Below are positions 41,104-45,768 of a DNA stretch of 64,000 nucleotides, one piece after another. The notes under the pieces were generated by a model. The model did not search any database. It saw only the letters and a program-made list of their open reading frames with translations, and was not told the origin of the DNA. Where the stretch lies: contig JAGWUH010000008.1 in the NCBI GenBank assembly GCA_028868535.1, positions 38,218-102,217 on the forward strand, written 5' to 3'. Both the position numbers and the translations under genes were made by a program. Position 1 is the stretch's first letter, and every line of letters starts with the position of its first letter. The stretch is from Sphingomonadales bacterium. Lineage in GTDB: Bacteria > Pseudomonadota > Alphaproteobacteria > Sphingomonadales > Sphingomonadaceae.

Positions 41104-42627
41104 CTAGAAGAAGCCGAGCTTCTTCGGGCTGTAGCTGACCAGCAGGTTCTTGGTCTGCTGGTAGTGGTCCAGCATCATCTTGTGCGTCTCGCGGCCGATG
41201 CCGGATTGCTTGTAGCCGCCGAACGCCGCGTGCGCGGGGTAGGCGTGGTAGCAGTTGGTCCAGACGCGCCCGGCCTGGATCGCGCGGCCGAAGCGGTAGC
41301 AGGTGTTGATGTCGCGGCTCCACACCCCGGCGCCGAGGCCGAAGGCGGTGTCGTTGGCGATCGCCAGCGCCTCGTCGGCGTCGCGGAAGGTGGTGGTGGA
41401 GACGACCGGGCCGAAGATCTCCTCCTGGAAGATCCGCATCTTGTTGTGGCCCTTGAACACCGTCGGCTGGACGTAATAGCCGCCCGCCAGGTCCCCCGTC
41501 ATCTGCGCGGCGTGGCCGCCGATCAGCACCTCGGCGCCCTCGTTGCGGCCGATGTCGAGGTAGCGCAGGATCTTGTCCTGCTGCTCGGCGCTGGCCTGCG
41601 CACCGATCATCGTCTCGATGTCGAGCGGGCTGCCCTGGCGGATCGCGGCGACGCGCTTCAGCGCCTTTTCCATGAAGCGGTCGTAGATGCTTTCCTGGAT
41701 CAGCGCCCTGCTCGGGCAGGTGCAGACCTCGCCCTGGTTGAGCGCGAACATCACGAAGCCCTCGATCGCCTTGTCGAAGAAGTCGTCATCCTCGGCGCAG
41801 ACGTCGGCGAAGAAGATGTTCGGGCTCTTGCCGCCCAGCTCCAGCGTCACCGGGATCAGGTTCTCGCTGGCATATTGCATGATCAGCCGGCCGGTGGTGG
41901 ATTCGCCGGTGAAGGCGATCTTGGCGATGCGCTTCGACGATGCCAGCGGCTTGCCGGCCTCGAGCCCGAAGCCGTTGACGATGTTGAGTACGCCCGGCGG
42001 CAGCAGGTCGGCGATCAGCTCTGTCAGAACGAGGATGGATGCCGGAGTCTGCTCGGCCGGCTTGAGCACGACGCAGTTGCCGGCGGCGAGGGCAGGGGCC
42101 ACTTTCCACGCCGCCATCAGGATCGGGAAGTTCCAGGGGATGATCTGGCCGACCACGCCCAGCGGCTCATGAATGTGATAGGCCATGGTGTCGGCGTCGA
42201 TCTCGCCGATCGAGCCTTCCTGCGCGCGGATGCAGCCGGCGAAGTAGCGGAAATGGTCGATCGCGAGCGGAATGTCGGCGGCGGTGGTCTCGCGGATCGG
42301 CTTGCCGTTGTCCCAGGTCTCGGCCAGCGCCAGTACCGGCAGGTTGGCCTCCATGCGATCGGCGATGCGGTTGAGGATCACGGCGCGCTCGGCCGGGCTG
42401 GTGCGGCCCCAGCTCTCGCGCGCGGCGTGCGCGGCGTCGAGCGCCAGCTCGATGTCGGCGGCATCGGACCGAGCGACCTCGCACACCGGCTTGCCGGTGA
42501 TCGGGCTGACATTGTCGAAATAGCGGCCGGCGAGTGGGGCGGTCCAGCGGCCGCCGATGAAGTTGTCGTAGCGCGCGTTGAACGGTGGCTTCAGGGTGCT
42601 GGCGCGTTCGGCGATCAGGGTGTCCAT
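41104..42627 (-). CDS. aldehyde dehydrogenase (ExaC/AcoD-like)
   Basis: The 507-aa non-acylating aldehyde dehydrogenase has [27 protein letters not shown] (cofactor site), [11 protein letters not shown] (general base) and [18 protein letters not shown], whose cysteine is catalytic; it ends YSPKKLGFF. It oxidises aldehydes to acids with NAD+, and close relatives serve ethanol, acetoin or glycerol pathways. The AcoR-like gene upstream on the same strand and a palindrome 109 bp before the ATG suggest aldehyde- or alcohol-responsive control. Confidence 0.95.
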
Positions 42628-42737
42628 CGGAAACGATCCTCTCCGGTCGGGCGGGCTGGATTGCCCGCCTCTGCGACCGTCGATGCGCTGGACCGTCGCG
42701 GCGCGACAGGGGGTGGGGAAACCGGGCGTCGCCAGCC

Positions 42738-42755
42738 TGTCTCGCTTGCGGGACA
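42738..42755. promoter_or_regulatory. operator-like palindrome upstream of aldehyde dehydrogenase (copy A)
   Basis: TGTCTCGCTTGCGGGACA, extended by CC/GG on the flanks, is an almost perfect palindrome with one mismatch per arm. It is essentially the same sequence as copy B at 43842-43859 (TGTCCCGATTGCGAGACA). The extended site ends 109 bp upstream of the aldehyde dehydrogenase start. TGTC...GACA palindromes fit AcoR-family activator sites. Confidence 0.65.
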
Positions 42756-42767
42756 GGTGCGCGGCCG

Positions 42768-43733
42768 TCAGTGCGCCTTGCCGACCATCCCGGCGCGTTC
42801 CATGCGGCGGTACATCGTTGCGCGACCGATCCCCAGCAGCCGCGCCGCCGCGGCGACATTGCCACCGCTGCGCGCCAGCGCCTGCCGCAGTACGGCGCGC
42901 TCGCCGTCGTCGAAGCCGGCGGCCGCCCCGGTGCCCAGCACATCGCCCAGAGGCTTGGGCTCGACCCGCGGCTCGCTGCCCAACCGGAAGCGCTGGCGCG
43001 CCGCGCGGGTCGCGCCGATCACCAGGTCATCGCGGTCGACAGCCAGCATCAGTCCGCCCTGGACCGGGTGCTCGCCGGCAACGACGATGCGCGCATCGGC
43101 ATAGCGGCGGCAGAAGAAATCACGTTCGATCGCCCGCGCTGCGTCCTGCACCAGCGCTGCAATCAGCCCGGCCATGGCCTCGCCATGGTCGGCGCGGGCA
43201 GTCGAGACGTCCAGCGCCGCGACGAGCTGGCCTTCCGGCCCGAAGATCGGCGCGTCCATGCAGCTGACGCCGATGTTGCGGCTGGCGAAGTGCTCGTGGC
43301 GATGGATCACCACCGGCCGCGCCTCGACCAGACAGGTGCCGATGCCGTTGGTGCCCTCAGCCGCCTCACTCCAGCTCGCGCCGGTGGCGAGGCCGACGGC
43401 ATTGAACAGCGCCGCTTCTGAATCGGGCGATCGCGTCTCCAGCACGGTCCCGTGAAGATCGGACATCAGGACGCAGCACCCGGTCGGCCCTACGCTGGAA
43501 AAAAGCCGGTCCAGCGTCGGCGTCGCCACCTGCAGCAGTTCCGCATTGGCCTCGCGCAGCAGCGCGGTCTCGGCCGCGCCCAGCCGCGCGCCGCTGCGTT
43601 GCCCCGCTGGATCGAGCCCGTGCCGCAGCGCTGATCGGCACCAGGATGCCGCCACGCTGGACAGCGCCGCTGCCTGCGGCGATTGCACGGTGCTGAGCAC
43701 GTGGTCGCTGTGCCTGATCGGGGCTTTCGCCAT
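42768..43733 (-). CDS. AcoR-like GAF/Fis-type regulator lacking the AAA+ domain
   Basis: The 321-aa regulator has an AcoR-type N-terminus ([16 protein letters not shown]), a GAF sensor region ([79 protein letters not shown]) and a C-terminal Fis HTH ([27 protein letters not shown]). The sigma-54-interacting AAA+ domain (GAFTGA) of classical AcoR is absent. ATG 43733 is preceded by CAGGAGACGC. It probably controls itself and the aldehyde dehydrogenase through the paired palindromes. Confidence 0.9.
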
Positions 43734-43841
43734 GCTGCGTCTCCTGCACCCTCTCGCTGTCCCGCGCATCTTGCGTCGGCCGGGCAAGCCTGTTCAGCCT
43801 AACGCGAAATGCAAGCAAACGCGAACGACGTCGCGGCGATG

Positions 43842-43859
43842 TGTCCCGATTGCGAGACA
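43842..43859. promoter_or_regulatory. operator-like palindrome upstream of the AcoR-like regulator (copy B)
   Basis: TGTCCCGATTGCGAGACA matches copy A (42738) at 15 of 18 positions and is itself an imperfect palindrome. It begins 109 bp upstream of the regulator's ATG, the same distance as copy A from the aldehyde dehydrogenase start. This suggests autoregulation. Confidence 0.6.
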
Positions 43860-43926: not shown

Positions 43927-44730
43927 TCAGCTCTCGACCATTTCCTTCGGGTCCGGAGCCAGCGCCTTGCGGGTCCAGCCCTTGCCGTAGTCAAGCGTGC
44001 CGAACATCCAGTCGTAGAGCAGCGAGATCGTCGCGAAGTTGCCGCCGGTGAAACGCGCGTGGTGGTTGTGGTGCATCACCGACATCGTGTTCAGGTACCG
44101 GATCGGGAACTTGTCGCTCCACAGGTCGTGGTTGTGCTGGTTGATCTCGCTGAACGCGTACCAGGTGACGATCACGGTCACGACGTGGAAATCGCCCATG
44201 AACCGCGACAGCACGAAGATCACCGCGGTGTAGAGACCCAGGCCCATCGCCACCTCGATCGGGTGGATGTAGCTGCCGTCGTTGCGGCACGGGTTCTTCT
44301 GGCGGTGATGATAGGCGTGGACCCACAGCAGCGGGCCGGGGCCGAAGCCGCCGTCATGGAACAGGAAGCGGTGAACGAGGTAGTAGAAGAAGTCGTAGAC
44401 CATCAGGATCACGACCATGTCGCGCAGGATCTGCCACCACGGTTGCGGTTCGAGGGTCAGGCAGAAGGGCAGCACCCCGCCGAAGATCACGATCGTGTCG
44501 ATCGCGCCCCACTTGGCGTTCCACTTCTGGTTTTCGGCGTAGCGGGGGTTTTCCATCTTCTTGGCGAAGGCCTCGGCGTTCATCTTCGCCGATTGCGCGA
44601 AGGCGGGCACCAGTTGCACGCCGAGCCAGCGCAGGCTCTTCGTCAGCACGAAGATGCCGATTCCCGCCATCAGCGAGTATTGCCAGTGATACTGCGTAAG
44701 CAGTGATTGCAGCCAGGGGGCATCCATCAT
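43927..44730 (-). CDS. fatty acid hydroxylase/sterol desaturase superfamily protein
   Basis: The 267-aa integral membrane di-iron protein has histidine clusters HRFLFH, HAYHHRQ and HHNHHARF plus DLWSDKFPIRYLNT, and four or more hydrophobic helices. The family hydroxylates or desaturates lipids, sterols or carotenoids with O2 at the membrane. GGAGAACG precedes tandem ATGs at 44730 and 44727. It is a close paralogue of the divergent gene at 44983, sharing FATISLLYDWMFGTLDYG-type blocks. Substrate unknown. Confidence 0.9.
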   Translation of the reverse strand: MMDAPWLQSLLTQYHWQYSLMAGIGIFVLTKSLRWLGVQLVPAFAQSAKMNAEAFAKKMENPRYAENQKWNAKWGAIDTIVIFGGVLPFCLTLEPQPWWQILRDMVVILMVYDFFYYLVHRFLFHDGGFGPGPLLWVHAYHHRQKNPCRNDGSYIHPIEVAMGLGLYTAVIFVLSRFMGDFHVVTVIVTWYAFSEINQHNHDLWSDKFPIRYLNTMSVMHHNHHARFTGGNFATISLLYDWMFGTLDYGKGWTRKALAPDPKEMVES

Positions 44731-44794
44731 CGTTCTCCTGCATCCTCTCGGCACGGGGGCCGTATGAATGGGCGGGAAGGAAAGGATTCCCGCC

Positions 44795-44813
44795 TTGAGA
44801 ACGCTGTTCTTAA
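44795..44813. promoter_or_regulatory. operator-like palindrome, copy 1 (divergent hydroxylase promoter)
   Basis: TTGAGAACGCTGTTCTTAA has a left half identical to the ideal TTGAGAACG and a right half with two changes. With copy 2 it defines a 19-bp palindrome TTGAGAACG-C-CGTTCTCAA. It lies 65 bp upstream of the minus-strand hydroxylase start. An adjacent 8-bp hairpin GGCGGGAA/TTCCCGCC (44771-44794) abuts it. Confidence 0.65.
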
Positions 44814-44851
44814 ATGAGATGGCGCGATTCGGAATTGACCGATCGCAAAAT

Positions 44852-44870
44852 CTGGGAACGCCGTTCTCAA
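44852..44870. promoter_or_regulatory. operator-like palindrome, copy 2 (divergent hydroxylase promoter)
   Basis: CTGGGAACGCCGTTCTCAA has a perfect right half (CGTTCTCAA) and two changes on the left, complementary to copy 1. Centres of the copies are 57 bp apart within the 252-bp gap between the divergent hydroxylase genes. A dimeric repressor (for example TetR type) could control both promoters. No such regulator is adjacent. Confidence 0.65.
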
Positions 44871-44982
44871 ATTTGTGGACAGGGCCATGAAAGCGAGATA
44901 AGTAGTCTCACAATGCCGAAACCGGCATGAAACGGCAAAGCGGCCGGCGTGCCGAAGTGCAGGCCGGCAGGGAGAATGGTCG

Positions 44983-45768
44983 ATGGATTCCGCATGGCTT
45001 GCGGCGCTGCAGGCGCACTACAACTGGCAATTGTCGCTGCTGACGATGGTCGCGATCTTCGCGTTGACCTGGGCCGGCGGCTGGATCGTGCAGATCGTGC
45101 CGACGATTCGTGCCGCCACCCGGCGCAATGCCGATGCCTACGCGGAAAAGATGGCCAAGCCCAATTATGCGGCGAACCAGCGCTGGAACCGCAAGTGGTC
45201 CGGCGTGTTTCTGGCGGTCATCTTTCTCGGGATCATCCCGTTCTGCGTGACCTGGGACCAGCAACCGCTGTGGCGCGTGGTGCGCGACATGGTCGTGATC
45301 CTGATGTTCTACGACTTCATCTATTACCTCACGCACCGCTTCCTGTTTCACAACGGCGGCTGGTTCGATGGCCCGCTGATGTGGATGCACGCCGTTCACC
45401 ACCGCCAGCACAATCCCTGCCGCTGGGATTCGAGCTACATCCACCCGCTTGAAGTGGCGATGGGGCTGGGGCTCTATGTCTTCACCATCGGCCTGTTCGC
45501 TTGGGCGTGGGGGCCGTTCAACTTCCTGACGATCGTCGTTACCTGGTTCGCCTTCACCTCGATCAACCTGCACAACCACAACCTGTGGGAATCGGATCGT
45601 TTTCCGTTCCGCTACCTGAATTACCTCTCGGTCATGCATCACAATCACCATGCCCGCTTCACCGGCGGGAACTACGCGACGATCTCGCTGCTTTACGACT
45701 GGATGTTCGGCACGCTCGACTATGGCGATGCGCCCCGCAAGGCGATAAAAGGCCGCAAAGGAGTCTGA
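44983..45768 (+). CDS. fatty acid hydroxylase/sterol desaturase superfamily protein (divergent paralogue)
   Basis: The 261-aa membrane protein has the same histidine clusters as its neighbour: HRFLFHNGG, HAVHHRQHNPCRWDSSYIHPLEVAMGLGLY and HHNHHARFTGGNYATISLLYDWMFGTLDYG. It should be a membrane di-iron oxygenase acting on a lipid or isoprenoid. AGGGAGAATGGTCG precedes the ATG. It is divergent from the first paralogue across a promoter region with two matched palindromes and is followed after 3 bp by an 81-aa protein. Confidence 0.9.
   Translation: MDSAWLAALQAHYNWQLSLLTMVAIFALTWAGGWIVQIVPTIRAATRRNADAYAEKMAKPNYAANQRWNRKWSGVFLAVIFLGIIPFCVTWDQQPLWRVVRDMVVILMFYDFIYYLTHRFLFHNGGWFDGPLMWMHAVHHRQHNPCRWDSSYIHPLEVAMGLGLYVFTIGLFAWAWGPFNFLTIVVTWFAFTSINLHNHNLWESDRFPFRYLNYLSVMHHNHHARFTGGNYATISLLYDWMFGTLDYGDAPRKAIKGRKGV

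Follow-up and report, generated by a model that had tools for sequence, protein, structure and literature searches.

In Pseudomonas, the acetaldehyde dehydrogenase ExaC is controlled by a LuxR-type response regulator within the PQQ ethanol-oxidation network. The regulators ExaE, AgmR and ErbR belong to these systems, and the ped/exa cluster has been reviewed (PMC12997753). Another group of aldehyde and acetoin genes is served by regulators of the AcoR type, sigma54 enhancer-binding proteins composed of a GAF sensor, an AAA+ domain and a Fis-type helix-turn-helix (HTH). In Phytobacter, AcoR reportedly binds the aldB promoter (PMC12648084), and the AcoR-type site is a 30-bp element of four parts (PMC10018347). 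For Bacillus AcoR, the half-site letters as quoted from Peng et al. 2020 in PMC12648084 are GAGACA and TGTCTC, an order opposite to that of the palindromes described below. DhaR, the regulator of the dihydroxyacetone kinase operon, has only its sensor and HTH ends in common with the protein studied here. TyrR, which responds to aromatic amino acids, carries other sensor domains and keeps an AAA+ part. It possesses a Fis-type HTH and recognizes an 18-bp box, TGTAAA-N6-TTTACA, with an obligatory G-N14-C; its boxes lie 33-42 bp upstream of the -35 elements of sigma70 promoters, and TyrR represses its own gene (PMC4374768).

The locus described here (Table 1) lies in a 64-kb window, by which we mean the whole stretch of Sphingomonadales DNA that was analysed. 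Its dehydrogenase shares the enzyme family of Pseudomonas ExaC, scoring 944.4 bits against the NF050026 equivalog, above the curated cut-off of 900. In contrast with Pseudomonas, the neighbouring regulator is a one-component GAF-HTH protein. Pfam places a GAF domain at residues 66-202 (PF01590, E 6.8e-15) and a C-terminal Fis-type HTH_8 at residues 278-313 (PF02954, E 7.4e-14), the two features held in common with AcoR-type proteins, and at these ends the regulator is AcoR/DhaR-like. No Pfam match to an AAA+ or Sigma54_activat domain was obtained; all 26 family members that were aligned with L021, a full-length AcoR-like protein of 660 aa, lack its central AAA+ region entirely. The first-pass annotation had called the protein AcoR-like, a label that suits its GAF and HTH_8 ends but not its middle: lacking AAA+, it cannot be counted as an AcoR of the sigma54 kind, and the known route of sigma54 activation is impossible for it.

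Table 1. Features of the regulator-exaC locus, in window coordinates
Feature	Position	Strand	Remarks
exaC, ExaC-type acetaldehyde dehydrogenase, 507 aa	41104..42627	-	start codon ATG at 42627; NCBIfam NF050026, Pfam Aldedh
CCCCC tract	42709..42713	-	about 25 bp past palindrome A; position conserved in many exaC promoters
Palindrome A, putative exaC operator	42738..42755		TGTCTCGCTTGCGGGACA on + strand; TGTCCCGCAAGCGAGACA on coding (-) strand
Regulator, 321 aa: N-terminal helices, GAF, HTH_8	42768..43733	-	start codon ATG at 43733; Pfam, NCBIfam, alignment, model, structures
TTGC, candidate -35 core, regulator promoter	43811..43814	-	begins 28 bp past palindrome B
Palindrome B, putative self-operator	43842..43859		TGTCCCGATTGCGAGACA on + strand; TGTCTCGCAATCGGGACA on coding (-) strand

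The AlphaFold model of the regulator is confident (pLDDT 89.8), and the closest solved structures are those of the E. coli DhaR sensor region, DhaR(N) (4lrx, 4lrz and 4lry; E 5e-10 to 2e-9). DhaR was also the closest NCBIfam match, over the GAF region (57-204); since NF008485 scored 74.7 bits there against a cut-off of 551, we rejected an assignment as full-length DhaR. The open-access literature yielded no papers on this regulator or its motif. With TyrR the regulator shares a Fis-type HTH, and its putative 18-bp site has the TGT-N12-ACA build of the TyrR box, G-N14-C included; further inside the half-sites, the letters are TGTCTC here and TGTAAA in TyrR. The protein is best regarded as a so far undescribed regulator of the AcoR/DhaR kind, an AAA+-less variant that would work like TyrR.

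As noted at first pass, two near-identical palindromes of 18 bp each are present upstream of the regulator and aldehyde dehydrogenase genes. Both are imperfect, pairing one TGTCTC-type with one TGTCCC-type half-site. Palindrome A follows the regulator stop codon by 12 bp, with the exaC ATG 110 bp downstream; palindrome B is separated by 67 bp from the stop of an upstream FA-hydroxylase gene, with 108 bp to the regulator ATG downstream. Searching the 3.39-Mb assembly for TGTCNCGN4CGNGACA, as the first-pass annotation had suggested, returned these two sites and no unrelated position, where about 0.4 matches are expected from base composition. Nor did the pattern TGTCYC-N6-GRGACA, at up to one mismatch, match anywhere else in the assembly, whereas its reversed control matched three times per strand. 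These genome-wide counts are pattern searches in an assembly of 82.8% completeness; at 83% complete, further targets may be missing from it.

The site upstream of exaC proved to be widely conserved. We found the palindrome, with at most two mismatches, in all 37 distinct exaC promoters read in regulator-bearing Sphingomonadales genomes, a count that used the motif as a filter and for which no linked regulator-exaC pair was discarded. Its distance to the exaC ATG is 102-125 bp (mean 111.8, sd 5.2, n=37); in a more distant alphaproteobacterium (L148), it occurs at 139 bp with one mismatch. Across exaC sites, hardly any variation is seen at the 12 half-site positions (TGTCTC/GAGACA), in contrast to the drifting 4-base centre. 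Orthologue gaps thus vary, those before the regulator even from 108 to 172 bp, which removes equal spacing as an argument against chance. The identical offsets of 109 bp that had been claimed are 110 and 108 bp when counted on the sequence, and their near-equality is a coincidence of this one genome. More telling are the steady exaC gap and the placing of a TTG in the regulator promoters, described below.

What does tie the palindrome to the regulator is co-occurrence. Within the genus, the regulator was found in 25 of 120 genomes; wherever the region upstream of exaC was read, the palindrome was present in 22/22 genomes with the regulator and in 0/7 without it (Fisher p = 6e-7, uncorrected for relatedness, which inflates such co-occurrence). 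A genome-wide pattern search of regulator-less genomes revealed no exact motif beside other exaC genes. In one genome (G135), 46 kb of the same contig separate the regulator gene from exaC, and each keeps a perfect-core palindrome. The earlier proposal that the palindromes are binding sites of the protein encoded between them is thereby strengthened, although that protein is not an AcoR of the sigma54 type.

The second site has a narrower distribution. A palindrome precedes the regulator's own gene in 20 of 45 regulators, with one more case (L142) ambiguous. On a maximum-likelihood tree, all 20 fall within one group of 27 (support 89/95), and their distribution needs three changes, against a mean of 15 after shuffling; the more distant regulators on the tree have the exaC site only. 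The simplest reading of this pattern is one gain followed by a few losses. Since the self-site is confined to one regulator group, autoregulation appears as a lineage feature and exaC as the general target. The autoregulation suggested at first pass is thus a prediction, with a candidate operator in these 20 regulators of one group. We propose that the exaC site is the ancestral, general target of the regulator, to which the self-site would have been added later in one group.

The self-promoters offered the clearest view of promoter geometry. In 20/20, the letters TTG (mostly TTGC) start 28-30 bp past the palindrome, whereas every non-overlapping 3-bp window of comparison reached at most 5. 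This TTG resembles a -35 element lying about 40 bp downstream of the palindrome centre, a geometry that would suit a regulator acting from upstream on a sigma70-type promoter. A promoter scan of the window region found no recognisable canonical sigma70 promoter. In the exaC promoters, the place of a candidate -35 is occupied by a C/G run, and no -35 is recognisable there; 20 of 28 promoters (L003-L103) have a CCCCC(C)T run, or in some close relatives a GGGGGGAT run, at 22-31 bp beyond the palindrome. The CrbR/ACTU box was considered as an account of this tract and dropped, its sequence not matching. A conserved sigma54 -24/-12 element is absent among the 28 exaC promoters, the best match in the window promoter having 5/11 mismatches, and we therefore rejected a sigma54 promoter ahead of exaC; weak, isolated -24/-12 matches occur in a few of these promoters, one of them (L020) with a single mismatch. 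Compared with AcoR systems, then, the locus has no AAA+ domain, no conserved -24/-12 before exaC, and a single 18-bp palindrome.

Taken as a whole, it is highly probable that palindromes A and B are operators of the GAF-HTH regulator encoded between them. From sequence, conservation, co-occurrence, domain make-up and spacing, we infer binding, dimerisation, effector and direction of control as follows. A regulator dimer would recognize TGTCTC-N6-GAGACA via its two HTH domains, and the GAF domain may act as sensor of a small molecule, for which aldehydes, alcohols and their metabolic products are the likeliest candidates, a suggestion whose sole basis is that the linked enzyme is ExaC. At palindrome A, the regulator would control exaC, most likely by activating a sigma70-type promoter from upstream, since it has no AAA+ domain with which to drive sigma54. 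At palindrome B, it would control its own gene, with either sign. Because of the TTG geometry of the self-promoters, the lack of a sigma54 element and the likeness to TyrR, a sigma70 regulator acting from upstream appears to be the likeliest mechanism. The circuit is solid but fairly ordinary.

Other accounts of the palindromes were weighed against these operators. That two alike palindromes should have arisen by chance in a GC-rich genome might be argued from degenerate matches (up to three mismatches), which occur in the 64-kb window at the expected frequency (13 observed versus 14.6 expected); with only two exact matches in the 3.39 Mb and an element that keeps its place throughout the order Sphingomonadales, this reading is refuted by conservation, and its probability is negligible. 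Transcription terminators or mRNA hairpins at gene ends would explain why both palindromes follow stop codons, and a stem of 6 bp is possible, with the full six pairs including G-U available in 26 of 37 exaC sites. Yet no T run follows either palindrome, a terminator scan reports neither, GATACA breaks the stem in 9 of 37 exaC sites, and the G135 exaC site has no regulator upstream. Moreover, the palindrome stands anywhere between -14 and 1167 bp from the regulator stop (sd 198) but at 112 +/- 5 bp from exaC; its position tracks exaC and not the upstream gene end, which argues against a terminator. We have set this very improbable reading aside on the grounds of distance statistics, broken stems and the missing T run.

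Two further alternatives concern the identity of the bound protein and the sign of control. Six HTH_8 domains are found in the genome, five of them outside the regulator, and binding by the regulator is itself predicted, so another Fis-HTH protein or a global regulator might use these sites; this is improbable, given that the site tracks the presence of this regulator gene across genomes and that, unlike sites of a global regulator, it is carried by these two genes only. Alternatively, the regulator could repress from both sites until relieved by an aldehyde- or alcohol-derived ligand, a reading that differs from our preferred explanation in sign alone. The sign of control is not readable from sequence, no recognisable strong promoter is available to place the transcription start, and TyrR, a related protein, acts as a repressor of its own gene when bound upstream of the -35 (PMC4374768). 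Against repression, the self-site ends 28-30 bp ahead of the candidate -35 without overlap, and the distance to exaC is unusually constant, as for a site acting at a fixed promoter distance. We regard repression as rather unlikely, though the most serious of these alternatives, and for exaC activation is favoured.

How far the regulon extends beyond exaC was judged from looser-pattern matches in relatives. None of these further matches adjoined the regulator or exaC, and most were of the all-C variant; those inspected had recA, folD, a replication-type gene, gcvT and a transporter as neighbours and look like chance, so we rejected a wider regulon. The finding as a whole is well supported but modest, a regulator variant whose regulon is probably single-target, namely exaC. 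On the evolutionary side, we lean slightly towards a scenario in which the AAA+ motor was lost in one branch of the sigma54 enhancer-binding proteins, leaving Sphingomonadales with a compact one-component sensor of aldehydes or alcohols that works on sigma70 promoters and has exaC as essentially its only target; autoregulation would have come later, in one lineage, when a further operator copy was acquired at a fixed spacing from a -35 element. If so, the family would be a clear natural example of a sigma54-type activator pared down to its sensor and DNA-binding domains, in which the tree shows the self-operator being gained. For Novosphingobium and related sphingomonads, a group used for aromatics degradation, the locus provides an operator open to testing and a sensor of aldehydes or alcohols that probably has a single target.

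Some family members fit the simple circuit less well. Orphan regulators of the same family occur in G071 (L120 7483-8430) and G070 (L121 7193-8131) without a linked exaC, and no palindrome was seen near them; the joint absence of exaC and palindrome fits the operator reading, yet a regulator in a palindrome-free vicinity also counts against the simple circuit. In three further genomes, G005, G007 and G073, a palindrome (L122 6106-6123, L123 6125-6142 and L124 7600-7617) lies about 50 bp past the stop of a paralogous regulator. The gene that follows in G005 and G007 is L,D-transpeptidase-like, not exaC, and the simple circuit leaves the palindromes of all these paralogues, with no exaC after them, unexplained.

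Two minor observations concern neighbouring arrangements. In another alphaproteobacterium (L145 3215-4477), exaC is divergent from a full-length AcoR-like regulator that has the AAA+ domain with its GAFTGA motif, and no TGTCTC palindrome lies between these two genes. Within our window, two palindrome-like stretches at 44795-44880, TTGAGAACGCTGTTCTTAA and GGAACGCCGTTCTCAAA, are flanked by head-to-head FA_hydroxylase (sterol-desaturase-like) paralogues at 43927-44733 and 44983-45768, and resemble an operator pair for another regulator.
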